Source of the DNA: Methanosarcinaceae archaeon
Lineage (GTDB): Archaea > Halobacteriota > Methanosarcinia > Methanosarcinales > Methanosarcinaceae
Reading direction: 5' to 3'
DNA: 64,000 bases
Assembly: GCA_020055655.1 (NCBI GenBank)
Contig: JAIPUR010000001.1
Coordinates: 62,001-126,000, forward strand
Numbering within the stretch: position 1 is the stretch's first letter; every line of letters starts with the position of its first letter. Positions 26,525-61,500 of the stretch are shown here, piece by piece. The notes beneath the pieces are model-generated. The model searched no databases and was not told the DNA's origin. It saw only the letters and a program-made list of their open reading frames with translations. A program made the translations under genes and the position numbers.

Positions 26525-27190
26525 TTATTGGTCTGAAACCTTTTCACCAATAACATATATTTCCATTTTCTCCGATTCCAGCACATTAAGAATGTTCAGA
26601 TCAAGCGCTTCTATCTGTGCAATTATGGGTCGCTGGCTCCTGCGATTTTCAATTTTGATGACCTGAAGGAATTTCCCTCCTTCTTTTAAAAGAGGGAGAA
26701 CACGTTCAAGAGCGCGTATTGAAAGTGAAGGTTCCAGTGTCATATCACTGAGCAGCACATCTACTTGCTCAGGTGACATTTCTTCCAGAGGCATCTGGAA
26801 TACGTCACCAAAAATGACCGTAACATTATCTTTTTCAGACTCAATTTTCTCAAGCTCAGGTAGAAAATCAGTACTAAATTCCACACCTCTAATGCTTCCA
26901 ACTATCTCTGATGCATAAAGCAGGAACCCGCCAGCACTTGAACCAAGATCAAGGGAATGATCTCCTTTATTGATAAGAGATGTAGCTTCCTGGATACCTT
27001 TGAGTTTGAAGTAGCCTCTTGGCATATCAAGTCCTTCTTCAACTTCAATAATATCTTTTGCCTTGATGTCCTTTGAAACCTTCTTAACCAAAACTCCGTT
27101 CACCTTTACATTCCCATTGAGTACGGCAGTTTTAGCTCGTCCCCGGGATTTGAACTGTCCTGTTTCCACAAGGTATGCATCCAATCTCAT
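26525..27190 (-). CDS. S4 domain plus SAM-dependent methyltransferase (TlyA-like)
   Basis: A 221-residue protein. Residues about 1-60 form an S4 RNA-binding domain (MRLDAYLVETGQFKSRGRAKTAVLNG, GVLVKK). Then a Rossmann methyltransferase of the FtsJ/RrmJ type: HSLDLGSSAGGFLLYASE is motif I, VTVIFGDVFQMP motif III-like, and LSDMTLEPS motif IV with an acidic residue; lysines expected for a K-D-K-E ribose methyltransferase are visible (K90s and K in VIKIENR). An rRNA 2'-O-methyltransferase like TlyA is likely. It is shorter than TlyA of bacteria (about 270). Confidence 0.85.
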   Translation of the reverse strand: MRLDAYLVETGQFKSRGRAKTAVLNGNVKVNGVLVKKVSKDIKAKDIIEVEEGLDMPRGYFKLKGIQEATSLINKGDHSLDLGSSAGGFLLYASEIVGSIRGVEFSTDFLPELEKIESEKDNVTVIFGDVFQMPLEEMSPEQVDVLLSDMTLEPSLSIRALERVLPLLKEGGKFLQVIKIENRRSQRPIIAQIEALDLNILNVLESEKMEIYVIGEKVSDQ

Positions 27191-56275: not shown

Positions 56276-57457
56276 ATGACAAAGAAGGTAGTACTTGCTT
56301 ATTCAGGTGGACTCGACACCTCTGTATGTATTCCTATTCTTAAGGAAGAATATGAATGTGACGAAGTTATCACTGTAGCTGTGGATGTCGGGCAGCCAAG
56401 GGAAGATGTTCAAGAAGCAGAAGATAAGGCACAGAAGATAAGTGACAAACACTTCACTTTAGATGTGCGTGAAGAGTTCGTCAACGACTATATTTTCCCA
56501 CTTATCAGAGCAAATGGTGACTATGAAGGATATGTAATGGGAACATCCATCGCACGTCCGCTTATCGCCAAAAAGGTTGTGGAAATCGCTGAGCAGGAGG
56601 GCGCAAGAGCACTTGCACATGGCTGTACCGGAAAGGGTAATGATCAGCTTCGTTTCGAGGCGGTTTTCCGTCTCACCGATATGGATGTATTTGCACCAAT
56701 GAGGGATATGAACCTCACCCGTGAATGGGAGATCGAATATGCAAAGAAGCATGGAATTCCTGTAGGTGTTACCACAGAGAAACCATGGAGTGTTGACGAG
56801 AACATCTGGAGCCGCAGTATCGAAGGTGGTAAGCTTGAAGACCCCGGATTCATTCCGCCAGAAGAGATCTACCAGTGGACTGTTTCACCGGAAGCTGCAC
56901 CTGAGGGTCAGATAATGGTTATTGGCTTTGAAAATGGTGTCCCAGTCTCAATCGATGGTGAGAAAATGGGCGGTGTTGAACTTATTGAAAAGCTCAACGA
57001 GATCGCAGGTTCTCATGGTGTTGGCAGAACTGACCTGATAGAAGACCGTGTTCTCGGACTCAAAGCACGTGAGAACTACGAGCATCCAGCAGCTACAGTT
57101 CTTCTTGAAGCACATAAGGACCTTGAAAAGCTTGTACTCACAAGAGCAGAGCTCAAATTCAAGAGAAATGTGGATGACCAGTGGTCAGAACTTGCATACT
57201 ACGGTCTTGTGGATGAGCCGCTTTATGCAGCCCTCAATGCATTCATAGACAAGACCCAGGAACGTGTAGAAGGTACAGTTACAGTTAAACTGCACAAAGG
57301 CAGTGTCATCATACTTGCACGTACATCTCCATTTGCACTCTACTCCGAGGAACTTGTATCCTTTGATGGTACAACCATCGATCAGAAGGACGCTGAAGGA
57401 TTCGCAAAGTACCACGGATTCCAGGCAAGAATGTACAAGAGAGTTATTGAAAAGTAA
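56276..57457 (+). CDS. argG: Argininosuccinate synthase
   Basis: A 393-residue ATP-pyrophosphatase of arginine biosynthesis that joins citrulline and aspartate. [18 protein letters not shown] is the P-loop-like PP-motif, then [14 protein letters not shown] (citrulline/ATP site), [14 protein letters not shown] and [17 protein letters not shown]. Length is normal. Its location after carAB brings arginine and pyrimidine precursors together, though the hairpin between them suggests separate control. A U-tailed hairpin terminates it. Confidence 0.98.
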
Positions 57458-57458
57458 T

Positions 57459-57501
57459 ATTGTGTGCCGGGAGGCATGCAATTGTTTTTTGTTTTTTTAT
57501 T
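57459..57501 (+). terminator. Hairpin terminator after argG
   Basis: ATTGTGTGCC and GGCATGCAAT pair with two G-U wobbles that fit plus-strand RNA, around the loop GGGA. A long T-rich run (TGTTTTTTGTTTTTTTATT) follows. Confidence 0.75.
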
Positions 57502-57619
57502 CAGTTGCACTACCAATTATGGTTCTAGTTTTTCTAAATAATTCTTTTACTTTATCTGGAACAGCTTCCTCAGTACATTCTTCTGCAAAAAATCTGCCAA
57601 ATTTACTGATTTTTAAAGT
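57497..57619 (-). pseudogene. Coding-like fragment A without a start codon
   Basis: On the minus strand 40 codons between two stops read TLKISKFGRFFAEECTEEAV then PDKVKELFRKTRTIIGSATE. Codon choice (GAA, AAA, GTA, ACT) and the mix of residues look like those of real genes here, but there is no ATG, GTG or TTG in a useful place. It could be the end of a decayed gene. I do not recognise a family. Confidence 0.3.
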
Positions 57620-57723
57620 TTATGAGTAATTAAAAGGAAAATTAATGAAAAATAAGTTATTGACAGCATTCTACGTTGTATTAATCTATAAATATCATTC
57701 TTCATTAGCTAGGCTAATGAATG

Positions 57724-57867
57724 TCAATTTGTCTGATAAATAATCTGCCAGGCCTGCTCAACATATTGATTCTCTGGGACTTCGCTTTCTACGATGAAGC
57801 ATTTAAGGCTCCGCAAATCTGTTCTACTGATTATTGTAGTACATTTTTTCCATTTGCTAAATAATGA
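57724..57867 (-). pseudogene. Coding-like fragment B without a start codon
   Basis: On the minus strand 47 codons read SLFSKWKKCTTIISRTDLRS, LKCFIVESEVPENQYVEQAW and QIIYQTN before a stop. The sequence has good amphipathic pattern and gene-like codon use but opens directly after a stop codon and lacks an early start. It is separated from fragments A and C by AT-rich sequence. No family recognised. Confidence 0.3.
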
Positions 57868-57932
57868 TTATAAATATAATAATTATAAAAACAATTGTTA
57901 TTAAATTTACAATCGTTAAAAAAAGCTTTCAC

Positions 57933-58037
57933 TCATAGAATTGCTTTAGGGAGGAGTTTTCCTTGTTTTGGAACTGGAGGATTTTCTCTAAAGTTCTGCA
58001 ATTTTAGTCCAAATATTCCTGCGTGACACTTGTCAAT
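57933..58037 (-). pseudogene. Coding-like fragment C without a start codon
   Basis: On the minus strand 34 codons read IDKCHAGIFGLKLQNF then RENPPVPKQGKLLPKAIL before a stop. It has no start codon at its beginning. With fragments A and B it makes three gene-like pieces in the same direction in a 650-base gap, as if one or more genes had decayed here. Family not recognised. Confidence 0.3.
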
Positions 58038-58114
58038 TCAAAAGGTTTTTATCTAATAATGTCCGTCTGGGATTATATTCCTACTCAAAACTAATATTTG
58101 GAGTGAAAAAATAA

Positions 58115-58288
58115 ATGTCAGCAATTATTAACAAAGAAGAATGTACCGGATGCGAATTATGTGTAGACTCATGCCCAGTTGAAGCTATTGCAATGGCAGA
58201 TGGAAAGGCAGTTGTAAATGCAGATGAATGTGTAGACTGTGGCGATTGCGTAGATGCATGCCCAGTTGAAGCTATCTCAATGGAATAA
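58115..58288 (+). CDS. Small 2x[4Fe-4S] ferredoxin
   Basis: A 57-residue ferredoxin of the clostridial type. Two motifs [12 protein letters not shown] and [12 protein letters not shown] each carry one cluster with the last cysteine from the other motif's CP. The halves are nearly symmetric (CPVEAIAM and CPVEAISM). Typical electron carrier for HdrA, Fwd or CO dehydrogenase systems. GGAG lies about 11 bases before the ATG and a TATA-like TTTTTATCT about 65 bases before it. It stands alone. Confidence 0.95.
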
Positions 58289-58385
58289 TTCTTTTCCATT
58301 CTTTTTTTTTGCTCATCTATTATTTTGTTGTAATTTCATTTTGCGGTAATCTCCTTTATATATGAAAAAATTATAATAAGAGCCT

Positions 58386-58976
58386 ATGGCACCAAATTCT
58401 TTTCTAGATGAAATTTTACGGAAAGGCTTTCATTTAATGTCTGTTGCCATTGTTCTGGTCTATGCTTTTTTTGGGAAGGAGATAGTCCTTCAATTTATGA
58501 CACTTTATCTTGTATCAATTCTTGTTGTTGAGCATTTGAGAATTGATCTTGGCTACAAGGTTCCCTTTGTGAACTATCTATTCCGTAAAAAAGAGGAAAA
58601 GGCAGTAGGAGGATATGTTTATTTTACACTTGGTTCCATAGTTGCAGTTTCTGTATTCAGTGAGAATGTTGCTTATGCTGCAATTCTCATGACAACATTT
58701 GGAGATATGATCGCGGCTCTAGTTGGTAAAAGGTTTGGCAATTTAAGGATATTCAGAGGTGGAAAATCTCTTGAGGGATCTCTGGCTGAATTCTTTGTTG
58801 ATCTGATTATAGCTTATGCTTTCCTCTCAAACATCACTATTGCTCTTGTAATGGCATTTGCAGCTACATTTGTAGAAACGAATTTTGAAAAAATAGATGA
58901 TAATCTTGCAATTCCCGTGTTCTCAGGATTTGCTGCGGAATTATTTTTGATACTTTCAGTTTATGTGCATTTTTAA
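58386..58976 (+). CDS. Diacylglycerol/polyprenol kinase family protein
   Basis: A 196-residue membrane protein with about six helices. EILRKGFHLMSVAIVLVYAFF near the start (R-K-x-x-H motif of the family), FGDMIAALVGKRFG with the conserved D and G residues, and GGKSLEGSLAEFFVDLIIAY fit the dolichol-kinase / CTP-dependent lipid kinase group. It probably phosphorylates an isoprenoid alcohol or a glycerolipid intermediate. No lipid gene is next to it. The substrate cannot be deduced. Confidence 0.85.
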   Translation: MAPNSFLDEILRKGFHLMSVAIVLVYAFFGKEIVLQFMTLYLVSILVVEHLRIDLGYKVPFVNYLFRKKEEKAVGGYVYFTLGSIVAVSVFSENVAYAAILMTTFGDMIAALVGKRFGNLRIFRGGKSLEGSLAEFFVDLIIAYAFLSNITIALVMAFAATFVETNFEKIDDNLAIPVFSGFAAELFLILSVYVHF

Positions 58977-59022
58977 GAAAAAGCAGTCTATCTATCAATC
59001 TGAAAGTATCATTCTGTATTCA

Positions 59023-59069
59023 GGAAAAGAGACATCTCTCGTACCACCCTATACAGATGTCCCTTTTCC
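59023..59069 (-). terminator. Hairpin following fragment D1
   Basis: GGAAAAGAGACATCT and AGATGTCCCTTTTCC pair at 14 of 15 positions around a 17-base loop. The one mismatch becomes a G-U pair on the minus-strand RNA, so the structure is fitted to minus-strand transcription. The 5' arm in that direction overlaps the last codons of fragment D1. Confidence 0.55.
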
Positions 59070-59135
59070 TCTACCTTTCTTGGTGCGTATTTTGTAGGCC
59101 ACTCCCCAGCCCGCAATACTAATCATGACACATGT
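59049..59135 (-). pseudogene. Fragment D1: C-terminal-like peptide, related to D2
   Basis: Minus-strand codons read TCVMISIAGWGVAYKIRTKK then GRGKGTSV before a stop. The pattern, a short hydrophobic stretch ending in GWGVAYK and a basic tail, is that of the end of a membrane-anchored protein. Only an internal ATG (MISIAG) is available as a start, and no upstream gene continues it. A hairpin with A/T tails lies at its end. Confidence 0.35.
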
Positions 59136-59301
59136 CTATTTAACATAATTCATTTATGTTTTTTTGTTGCGCAATAAAATTTAATGCCATTAAATGTTTT
59201 GATAAATTCAGACTGTTTGCTACAAAAATAGAATTAATAATGCAAGTCCTATATCATAGTTAATAACTAAATATTAAGATTAAAAAAGCTATATTGGAGA
59301 A

Positions 59302-59343
59302 AAAAGACACCTTTATTACTCCCTGTAAAAAAGGTATCTTTTT
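59302..59343 (-). terminator. Hairpin following fragment D2
   Basis: AAAAGACACCTTT and AAAGGTATCTTTT pair along 13 positions with a single difference that is a G-U pair in minus-strand RNA. It follows the stop of fragment D2 directly, in the same arrangement as at D1. Confidence 0.5.
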
Positions 59344-59347
59344 CCTG

Positions 59348-59410
59348 TTATTTCCCATCACTTGATTTGTAATGAATCACTCTCCAACCCACAATAATAA
59401 TTAGGATTGT
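59348..59410 (-). pseudogene. Fragment D2: C-terminal-like peptide, related to D1
   Basis: Minus-strand codons read TILIIIVGWRVIHYKSSDGK before a stop. It aligns with D1 over T-x-x-x-I-(x)-I-x-GW-x-V-x-x-YK, and the DNA words ATTATTGTGGGTTGGAGAGTG and ATTGCGGGCTGGGGAGTG are alike. Both peptides begin one codon after a stop. No start codon. It looks like the C-terminal end of a small membrane protein whose remainder is lost. Confidence 0.35.
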
Positions 59411-59557
59411 TCAGTATTTAAACTAAACCCAGATGAATTTTTGGATGTGCTGTGTATTGGTTCACTGGAAGCAGCTTATGAAAGACAGTTACAAATAAAA
59501 GGACAGGTATATTACATTCGAAAACTCTCTAATAGGCAGAGCACATGGTTTATTTAG
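59405..59557 (+). pseudogene. Coding-like fragment E without a clear start
   Basis: Plus-strand codons read DCSVFKLNPDEFLDVLCIGS, LEAAYERQLQIKGQVYYIRK and LSNRQSTWFI before a stop, opening directly after a stop codon. The residue mix is gene-like. A TTG at residue 13 is the only start candidate and has no ribosome site. It overlaps the first codons of the longer reading of the next gene. Family unknown. Confidence 0.25.
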
Positions 59558-59589
59558 TAATTTATTCTTTCTGGAAAGGGATTGAAAAT

Positions 59590-60369
59590 ATGAACAGTAA
59601 AACTGCTATGAATTGGAAAATATTCTGGTTAATTTTCATGATGGCAGAGATCTCTATGTTTGCAGCCCTTCCATATTCATTATCAATTTCCGGAGATCTC
59701 ATATATAGCTTAGGTACATCTCTTCCTTTGCTCTTGGCAACTCAGTTTGCTCAGGGGACGGCACTTATCATAATATCTATCGTTACCGGTCTTTATCTTG
59801 GAAATAAACTAGGCTTAAGGACTCCTTTACTTAAATCTTTATTTCAAGGTAGGGGATTGCCTGCAAACTTTAAAAGCTCTTTGAAAATATCTGTATTACT
59901 TGGTCTTTTTCTCAGCATAATTATGCTTTTAGTTGATAAATTTATTTTTTCAGTATACATGAATTCTTTAATATCATTTATCTCATCACCTCCACTGTGG
60001 CAGAGATTCATGTATTCGTTTTATGCAGGCATAGTAGAAGAAATAATATTGAGATATTTTTTGGTAACAATATTGGTATGGATAACATGGAAGATCAAAA
60101 GAACGCCTGAGGACCTTCCTACAAATGTAGGTGTCTGGCTTTCAATAATAATTGTAAGTATAATTTATACACTTGGAAATATATTGTCTTTATCTGATTC
60201 ATTGCAGTTTAACATAGCAACATATTTGGGGTACATTTTATTGAATTTGATGGCCGGAAGTATCTTCGGTTGGCTTTACTGGAAAAAAGGCTTGGAATCA
60301 GCAATAATAGCCAATCTGACCGCCACTTTAATGATATTCACAGTTATTAGCTCTCTGTTACCGATGTAA
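59590..60369 (+). CDS. CPBP-family intramembrane protein with altered active site
   Basis: About 259 residues with seven to eight helices. The CPBP glutamate motif EEIILR lies in YAGIVEEIILRYFLVTIL, so the fold is that of CaaX prenyl protease / bacteriocin-processing enzymes. At the second motif the expected FxxxH is IYTLGN, and at the third the expected histidine in the LxHxxxN helix is asparagine (ESAIIANLTATL). The catalytic metal site therefore looks changed. I use the ATG of MNSKTAMNWKIF, preceded by GGAAAGGGA; the longer start 15 codons upstream is less likely. Function unknown. Confidence 0.65.
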   Translation: MNSKTAMNWKIFWLIFMMAEISMFAALPYSLSISGDLIYSLGTSLPLLLATQFAQGTALIIISIVTGLYLGNKLGLRTPLLKSLFQGRGLPANFKSSLKISVLLGLFLSIIMLLVDKFIFSVYMNSLISFISSPPLWQRFMYSFYAGIVEEIILRYFLVTILVWITWKIKRTPEDLPTNVGVWLSIIIVSIIYTLGNILSLSDSLQFNIATYLGYILLNLMAGSIFGWLYWKKGLESAIIANLTATLMIFTVISSLLPM

Positions 60370-60468
60370 ATAGGTGGATACGTCCATTTGTTGAACATTC
60401 CTTTAAATAGGAATCAAACTTTCTCTTGTCCGCTAAGCTATTAAGCAAAGGAATGCTAAAATGGATAC

Positions 60469-60846
60469 ATGGCATTTTCTTTAGTTATGGTCGTAATTGC
60501 TGTATTGTTTCTTGCAGGGCTTATCCTATCCTTTTTTGCAGTAAAGCTCAAAAGAGATGAATATAAGGTTACAGGAAAATATCCCAAAGGACATTATATG
60601 GGACAGGGAATAGCAATTGGTATTGCAATAGGGATACCAATAGCCATCGCAACAGGTAATATCTTTGGTGGATATGTAGTTGGTCTGGTCGCTGGTACTA
60701 TTATTGGAGCTCGCATGGAGAATAAGCATGTAAATGAGCTTAGACCACTCACTCAAACGGAAAAAGACCTCAGAAAAAAATCAGTTCTGATATTTGGTGC
60801 TTTGCTCGTAGTTGGAATTATCTTAGTATTGACATCTGTATACTGA
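60469..60846 (+). CDS. Small three-helix membrane protein, unknown function
   Basis: A 125-residue protein with one N-terminal helix (VMVVIAVLFLAGLILSFFAV), a glycine-isoleucine repeat helix (GQGIAIGIAIGIPIAIATGNIFGGYVVGLVAG) and a C-terminal helix (VLIFGALLVVGIILVLTSVY), with charged linkers. The GxGIAIGxxIGxPIG pattern is typical of small bacterial/archaeal membrane proteins of no known role. It follows the CPBP-family gene by about 100 bases and could be co-transcribed with it. Confidence 0.6.
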   Translation: MAFSLVMVVIAVLFLAGLILSFFAVKLKRDEYKVTGKYPKGHYMGQGIAIGIAIGIPIAIATGNIFGGYVVGLVAGTIIGARMENKHVNELRPLTQTEKDLRKKSVLIFGALLVVGIILVLTSVY

Positions 60847-60924
60847 TGTGTCCTACTCGCGTAAATTCAACAATGGTTAATCATTTTTGCTCTTTCAACT
60901 TTTTAGTTTTACTAATCCGATAAA

Positions 60925-61500
60925 ATGAAAATCTATTCTTTTAATAATCACAAAAAGAACATTCTTATCGCAATGTCAATTGCTTTATTTGTAATTTTAT
61001 GGTCAATTATTCTGTACTATCATCCACCAAATGAAATTGTTTCAATGATGGGAGTACGCAATATTTACATTTTCATCTTTACGATGGCTCTGGTAGGTGG
61101 GGTTTCAACATTTACTTCTACTGCTTTTTACACTACCTTGATAACAATATCAATTGGTGGAGCTAATGCTTTATGGGTTGCATTTTTTACAAGCATCGGT
61201 CTGACTCTGGGAGATGTCCTGTTCTACTATTTTGGAACGAAATGTAAACAATGTATCAAGGGAAAATATGGGAGTTATGTAGACAGTCTTACAGAAAAAA
61301 TGGAACAAGTTGATGACAGGATCACCATGATATTGATCTTTTTGTACTCGTTGACTCCCCTGCCAAGTGATATAATTGCAATAGCACTTGCAATAGCTGG
61401 ATTTCCATTCAAAAAAATGATTGTTCCATTGCTTGTTGGTAATTTTGTGCTGATCCTGATTCTGGTGGAGCTTTCCAGATTAGGATATAATCTGATATGA
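60925..61500 (+). CDS. DedA/VTT-like membrane protein
   Basis: A 191-residue protein with five to six helices. GGVSTFTSTAFYTTLITISIGGANALWVAFFTSIGLTLGDVLFYYFG resembles the reentrant/glycine-rich half of VTT (DedA/SNARE-associated) domains, and LYSLTPLPSDIIAIALAIAGFPFKKMIVPLLVGNFVLILILVEL its second half, with the P-x-P-x-D pattern. Such proteins scramble or flip lipids in the membrane. Identification is by pattern only. It stands last of three plus-strand membrane protein genes. Confidence 0.6.
   Translation: MKIYSFNNHKKNILIAMSIALFVILWSIILYYHPPNEIVSMMGVRNIYIFIFTMALVGGVSTFTSTAFYTTLITISIGGANALWVAFFTSIGLTLGDVLFYYFGTKCKQCIKGKYGSYVDSLTEKMEQVDDRITMILIFLYSLTPLPSDIIAIALAIAGFPFKKMIVPLLVGNFVLILILVELSRLGYNLI

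Follow-up and report, generated by a model that had tools for sequence, protein, structure and literature searches.

The window analysed here is a 64,000-nt stretch of contig JAIPUR010000001.1 (positions 62,001 to 126,000) from a Methanosarcinaceae archaeon. Near its right-hand end, between a plus-strand gene for a membrane protein, whose product is possibly dolichol-kinase-like, and a plus-strand gene for a CPBP protease, lie two small minus-strand modules, D1 and D2 (Table 1).

Table 1. Features of the D1/D2 locus, in window coordinates
Feature	Position	Strand	Basis
Membrane-protein gene, 196 aa, convergent with D2	58386..58976	+	no Pfam match
D2, RNA copy 2: model match and predicted transcript body	59023..59122	-	R2, 92.7 bits
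D2 P3 terminal hairpin, loop GUAUAGGGUGGUACGAG	59023..59069	-	fold and alignment A6
D2 P2 hairpin (ACC...GGU), short, variable	59072..59085	-	fold and alignment A6
D2 P1 hairpin GGGCUG-GGGAG-UGGCCU, overlying the apparent 'GW-x-V'	59096..59112	-	fold and alignment A6
D2 TATA-like stretch TTAAATA	59137..59143	-	read from sequence; aligned with other copies
Box upstream of D2 TATA, TTGCGCAACA, operator candidate	59165..59174	-	read from sequence
D1, RNA copy 1: model match and predicted transcript body	59298..59400	-	R1, 47.9 bits; R2, 80.3 bits
D1 P3 terminal hairpin, with six Us close to the end	59298..59345	-	fold and alignment A6, helix 3
D1 P1 hairpin GGGUUG-GAGAG-UGAUUC	59374..59390	-	alignment A6, helix 1
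D1 promoter-like stretch GGGTTTAGTTTAAATA (BRE and TATA)	59415..59430	-	read from sequence
CPBP (Rce1-like) protease gene, divergent from D1	59545..60369	+	PF02517, E 1.3e-8

A first-pass annotation had described D1 and D2 as related modules, each consisting of a short peptide frame and a terminal hairpin, and their strand and location agree with that description. The peptides are present (IIIVGWRVIHYKSSDGK in D1 and ISIAGWGVAYKIRTKKGRGKGTSV in D2, each followed by a stop codon), as is the single G-U pair of each end hairpin (GAUACC/GGUGUC in D1 and GGGAC/GUCUC in D2, by reading). The wording that both frames open directly after a stop codon is not exact, as six codons separate TGA from the core GTG in D1 and three separate TAG from the in-frame ATG in D2. 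The kinship of the two modules is above chance: a covariance model built without D1 found D1 with an E value of 1.5e-8 in 107 kb. The pair is absent from plain repeat-finder output for the window, so the likeness consists of structure and short blocks. Both modules fold more stably than their shuffled versions, at -33.1 kcal/mol (z -4.97) for D1 and -35.6 kcal/mol (z -4.09) for D2, with 0 of 200 shuffles as good in either case. Three other copies that were folded have z values of -3.85, -3.11 and -3.75, with 0, 2 and 1 of 200 shuffles as good, respectively. A 15-nt inverted repeat (93%) with arms at 58948-58962 and 58997-59011, at the end of the membrane-protein gene and just past D2, is perhaps the terminator of that plus-strand gene.

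Copies in the genome, the genus and beyond

BLASTN with D2 found two further places in the same genome, and BLASTN with D1 found one place, in the sister species G002. The covariance model R1, for which D2 and two other copies were used and D1 was left out, recovered D1 and, at 97.2 bits, a copy on contig 33 of the same genome, along with copies in other species; its output also includes weaker, chance-looking matches. The genome thus encompasses five copies, namely D1, D2 and one each on contigs 2, 29 and 33 (C2, C29 and C33). A second model (R2) was built from eight copies, among them all five of these; its alignment, A6, omits a G021 copy that is near-identical to one of G040, as well as a doubtful G002 match (L019). 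With R2, the five copies, all of which are in its alignment, scored E values from 2.1e-16 to 1.1e-11, the latter belonging to D1 in a search of its own genome, and D2, which is in the alignments of both R1 and R2, scored 5.4e-14.

The third model, R3, was built exclusively from other species, using 50 of 55 elements (alignment A7); L009, L065, L070 and L081 were dropped as near-duplicates and L214 because its P2 is replaced, and three of the 50 rows were trimmed at the 5' end. R3 recovers four of the five copies, at 27.1, 23.9, 20.8 and 16.3 bits, the last being D2 (E 0.013), and misses D1 even at E values up to 5; it also misses the second G002 copy (L017), a member of R2. In a search of the whole genome with R3, only two of its copies reached E <=0.01, and none was found under stricter filters at 5e-4. 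As R3 nevertheless finds four of the five, the RNAs of the window fall within the same superfamily as the copies of other species, D1 being tied in through R1. D1 is a divergent member, both in being missed by R3 and in having GGGAGU instead of GGUGG in the P3 loop.

At E <=0.01, R3 has 182 matches in 12 of the 27 genomes of the genus Methanolobus, to which the window's genome belongs, with up to 34 in a single genome, second P2-P3 blocks included. The 16-base loop pattern, allowing one mismatch, occurs in 11 of 111 genomes of the family, all of them from this genus, with 106 matches as opposed to one for the reversed pattern; the G001 match among these lacks the surrounding element and is taken as chance. 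Over the same 111 genomes, 84 of them outside the genus, R2 found nothing outside it with an E value better than 0.0365 (strict filters, 35 candidates per genome). In 185 genomes of the order, R3 gave a single weak match outside the genus at E <=5e-4 (30.1 bits), under filters strict enough to lose the copies of the window's own genome, so distant relatives were possibly missed. This match, in a genome of a different genus (G047:C1:2358956-2359090), lies beside an ABC transporter gene and is clear only in a P3-like hairpin with the loop GCGAGGUGG; possibly a distant relative or a chance hit, it was left uncounted. A locus of Methanolobus sp. Soudan_28 (L103) is a member of the family, with an R3 score of 89.2 bits; it was the only one scored from a contig scan with a 14-base pattern, in which the matches listed came mostly from unrelated organisms. 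Of the 19 IMG/VR stretches in which the loop 16-mer occurs, a single one spans the model, at just 17.0 bits (E 0.022), and the rest give short matches or none. Comparison with Rfam 15 produced no match above the gathering score, either for positions 57400-61000 of the window (seven weak matches, E at least 0.19) or for four loci with copies (two weak matches, E at least 0.12).

Structure and promoter-like stretches

In the large group of copies from other species, a BRE/TATA-like promoter stretch is followed by the hairpin P1 (UUGCGGGUC..GAACCGCAA, UUGUGAGC..GCUCACAA and similar), a linker that frequently contains GGGAGUGG, the hairpin P2 with a GGGG loop, the stretch GGAUUCGUAAGGA and the terminal hairpin P3, which is closed by AAA/UUU and bears the loop GCGUGGUGG. 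Among the 50 copies, there is hardly any variation in the P2 loop GGGG or the P3 apex AAAGCGUGGUGGUUU. For D1 and D2, the predicted RNA is about 100 nt long; in the large group, its length is about 120-140 nt. In the eight copies of A6, which contain GAGU in every P1 loop region, P2 is variable, and the GGGG loop is missing from the five copies of the window's genome. Their P3 loops read GGUGGU in D2, C2 and C33, GUGGU in C29 and GGGAGU in D1. These copies end in a short run of four to six Us, and many copies of other species have none after P3. In some units, a further P2-P3 block follows about 100 nt downstream. At one G040 locus (L214; G040:C1:3027377-3027514, minus strand), P2 has been swapped for a longer hairpin-like stretch, with the start of P1 and P3 retained.

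The proposed stems are supported by covariation. In the 50-copy alignment, 15 of the 28 proposed pairs show changes on both sides, with 87 such cells, and none of 500 shuffles scored as high; sliding the partner by one to three columns leaves only 3-6 covarying pairs. Altogether 92.3% of the cells are paired, P1 has gaps in three rows, and one of its pairs does not form in 26. For A6, which includes the copies of the window's genome and was fitted to a model, 14 of 26 pairs covary, 96.9% of cells are paired and again none of 500 shuffles did as well; every cell of the helix that forms D1 P1 is paired, one pair changing from C-G to U-A. The RNAalifold consensus of the 50 copies has 19 pairs, eight of which have changed on both sides; it retains parts of P1 and P3 but departs from the proposed P2 in pairing GGGGA with its 3' side. 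Single-sequence folds favour the proposed P2, with unpaired probabilities of 0.85 for the P2 loop, 0.66 for the P3 apical loop and 0.49 for the linker. Conservation in the large group is highest in the P3 closing (1.95 bits per column), the P3 apical loop (1.94) and the P2 loop (1.86), as compared to 1.60 in the outer P3 stem, 1.40 in the P2 stem and 1.38 in the P1 stem; the P1 loop (1.06) and the linker (1.01) are the least conserved inner parts. Covariation of the stems together with the fixed loops indicates that selection maintains the stems as paired structures and the two loops as sequences.

As judged by sequence, D1, D2 and the other copies of this genome have a promoter-like stretch of the kind expected of an independent archaeal small-RNA gene (BRE/TATA, about 20-27 nt before the start). 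In D1, the model start lies 22 nt from the first base of TTTAAATA, and the promoter-like stretch is similar to that preceding copies in other species. In G040, 14 of 16 units have, by eye, such a stretch at a near-constant distance. The box upstream of the D2 TATA has counterparts in C29 (TTGTGCAACA) and C2 (ATGTGCAACA), and the near-palindromic (T/A)TGYGCAACA common to these three copies upstream of the promoter (loci L016 and L006) is a candidate operator.

Neighbouring genes

Homologues of the membrane-protein gene on the D2 side are present in all 27 genomes of the genus, and the loci around 30 of 44 matches were inspected. The RNA faces the 3' end of such a homologue in the window's genome and in G040, G021, G010 and G015; a match in G017 (25.7 bits) close to the neighbour gene is on the same strand and was excluded from this count. 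One and the same neighbour in five species was considered and rejected, as the tree of the 30 homologues places the window gene in a seven-row group (100/99) that belongs to another paralogue group than the genes of G040, G021, G010 and G015, which form one branch (93/91). The three aligned RNAs of that four-species branch resemble one another at 0.85-0.88, as opposed to at most 0.76 for any other row. In six other genomes with the paralogue of the window, no RNA match was found beside it, and none of four other window genes that were checked lies beside the RNA-adjoining genes of G040, G021, G010 and G015. A ferredoxin gene of the window adjoins the membrane-protein gene (58115-58976), and a similar ferredoxin adjoins five members of yet another, third group (L252, L256, L261, L262 and L272); this mismatch between neighbourhood and tree perhaps reflects gene conversion or replacement.

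In five species (L036, L037, L038, L039 and L028), the element is followed on the same strand, after about 50-210 nt, by the start of a gene for the RuBisCO large chain, and these copies form a sequence type of their own, with a mutual resemblance of 0.78-0.94 in the five rows and at most 0.71 to others. The element could be a leader at this locus. Copies have thus been kept in place across other species, and D1 and D2 lie outside these sets.

In G040, 19 of the 24 R3 matches make up 16 units, six of which have a FilR1 domain (PF08350) no more than 500 nt away, five of them being convergent with it. Random placement, which was not confined to intergenic space, gave a mean of 0.25 and in none of 20,000 trials as high a number. 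Of 10 units of G007, derived from 14 of its 17 R3 matches, two are near FilR1 (P 0.015), one of them convergent. None of the five copies of the window's genome, D1 and D2 included, has a FilR1 gene nearby. Over 27 species, the numbers of RNA and FilR1 matches correlate with a Spearman coefficient of 0.71, relatedness being ignored. FilR1-type regulators have from 6 to 57 matches per Methanolobus genome in the 27 genomes, in places in tandem clusters. A gene with a DUF1699 domain (Pfam) is found near the RNA copy on contig 33 (L020, 32-445), and a protein similar to DUF1699, judged by eye, is encoded near a cluster of copies in G040 (L084, 730-1134).

Nature of the element and known small RNAs

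The covarying structure, the promoter-like stretches and the multicopy distribution make it very probable that the D1 and D2 elements belong to a family of small-RNA genes. As the stems change pairwise while the P2 loop and the P3 apex hardly change, the loops are most likely the parts that touch a partner. Each copy would be transcribed from its own archaeal promoter-like stretch (TATA, with BRE in D1) into a predicted RNA of about 100 nt that folds into the 5' hairpin P1, the variable middle P2 and the long terminal P3, and the fixed G-rich loops would contact a shared partner, either an RNA-binding protein or a C-rich RNA. We infer that D1 and D2 are transcribed in this species, and the reading that we prefer, on balance a probable one, is that they are sibling regulatory RNAs that act in trans through loop contacts with a shared partner, perhaps under cold induction. 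For loop-mediated action in trans as such, we consider the chances even. Ribosome mimicry was not adopted as a mechanism, as pairing with the 3' end of 16S rRNA is not supported beyond what G-richness accounts for; it beat shuffles clearly in just one of six stretches (C2, 0.012), the others giving 0.07-0.29.

The first-pass annotation had offered two origins for the modules, a repeated RNA element or scars, with retained terminators, of two lost membrane-protein genes. The former is borne out, since similar hairpins are abundant across the genus; the latter we consider extremely unlikely. When nine copies are read in the D1/D2 frame, GW-x-V appears in four (D1, D2, G2a and C33), which is what a scar might leave, and GY in one, but the frame is not kept: TAG replaces W in two copies and a one-base shift occurs in two. 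The bases behind GW are, moreover, accounted for by the P1 stem, and the element is multicopy and has promoter-like stretches. TAG can encode pyrrolysine in these archaea, according to a published report (PMC5378194). Small translated ORFs, either leader peptides or small proteins, are hardly more credible. D2 does have an ATG frame of 25 codons, and the three sense frames of P2-P3 are free of stops in 26, 31 and 4 of 50 copies; however, the antisense frames score 30, 43 and 2 on the same count, which shows that short open frames are frequent in this sequence in any case. A small protein was rejected because every frame is interrupted in at least one copy, the apparent peptide frames have different end points among the copies, and the indels are not multiples of three.

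The main rival to sibling RNAs acting in trans is a set of cis elements, serving as antisense RNAs or terminators at convergent 3' ends (in the window and at FilR1 genes) or as leaders (at RuBisCO genes). It accords with the RNA facing the 3' ends of genes that form one family but fall into two separate paralogue groups, with the FilR1 proximity in G040 and G007, largely or partly convergent, and with the same-strand position before RuBisCO genes in five species. We nevertheless regard it as unlikely: the neighbours vary from locus to locus, 10 of the 16 units in G040 and 8 of the 10 in G007 are away from FilR1, as are all five copies of the window's genome, the window's paralogue has no adjoining RNA match in six other genomes, and a terminator requires neither a promoter nor fixed loops. 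A functionless dispersed repeat, whether resembling a MITE or derived from an orphaned insertion-sequence end, would fit the numerous intergenic copies, scattered and unevenly spread among species, the tandem P2-P3 blocks and the grouping of the window gene apart from the genes at other RNA-bearing sites. Such mobile or selfish DNA is, however, a very unlikely source of copies that hold the same place across species and have covarying stems and some fixed loops, and the IMG/VR stretches with the loop 16-mer yielded one weak match spanning the model.

Few archaeal small RNAs have, to our knowledge, an established action, and we know of few large paralogous families with a shared fold among them. 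Methanosarcina mazei sRNA154 and sRNA162 are intergenic regulatory small RNAs from the same methanogen family as the host, and the comparison with D1 and D2 is one of description. The family described here combines compensatory changes with two near-fixed loops, is conserved in position among other species and is statistically tied to FilR1-type regulators. In bacteria, the Csr/Rsm sponge RNAs (CsrB, RsmY/Z) have multiple hairpins with G-rich loops, occur in several copies and present the binding motif ANGGA. The Methanolobus family is likewise multicopy, with several hairpins and little-varying G-rich loops, and could be a multivalent bait; in contrast to the sponge RNAs, its loops are GGGG and GGUGG, not ANGGA, and in the large group two of them (P2 and P3) are near-invariant and the P1 loop varies. 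No CsrA is known to us in archaea. It is a doubtful, if wider-reaching, proposal that a clade-specific small-RNA family of up to 34 matches per genome has undergone expansion in parallel with FilR1/Msr-type regulators and serves as a cold-switched multivalent bait through GGGG/GGUGG; if true, it would be an archaeal counterpart of Csr/Rsm-type RNA titration.

A search of the Methanolobus literature, in titles and abstracts and mainly open-access, found one paper that bears on such a family and no other describing one. Li et al. (2015; PMC5378194) reported 195 intergenic non-coding start sites in M. psychrophilus R15 and nine highly conserved small RNAs, all cold-induced, that share a motif, the 'cold box', upstream of their promoters. 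In the part of the paper available to us, unlike for the family described here, nothing is said of a structure common to these RNAs, of covariation, of further species or of an association with genes; the two sets have in common the genus, several conserved intergenic small RNAs and a common upstream motif. One species that bears the family has published start-site data together with nine conserved cold-induced small RNAs. G040, with its 24 R3 matches, fits this strain: Mpsy_0031 is placed at 26,651 in R15 (PMC5378194), and in G040 a 1200-aa PAS-HisKA-REC protein (domains assigned by eye) spans that position. The RNA family may well be that of the nine cold-induced R15 small RNAs, and, like the R15 RNAs, 14 of the G040 units have a promoter-like region in common.
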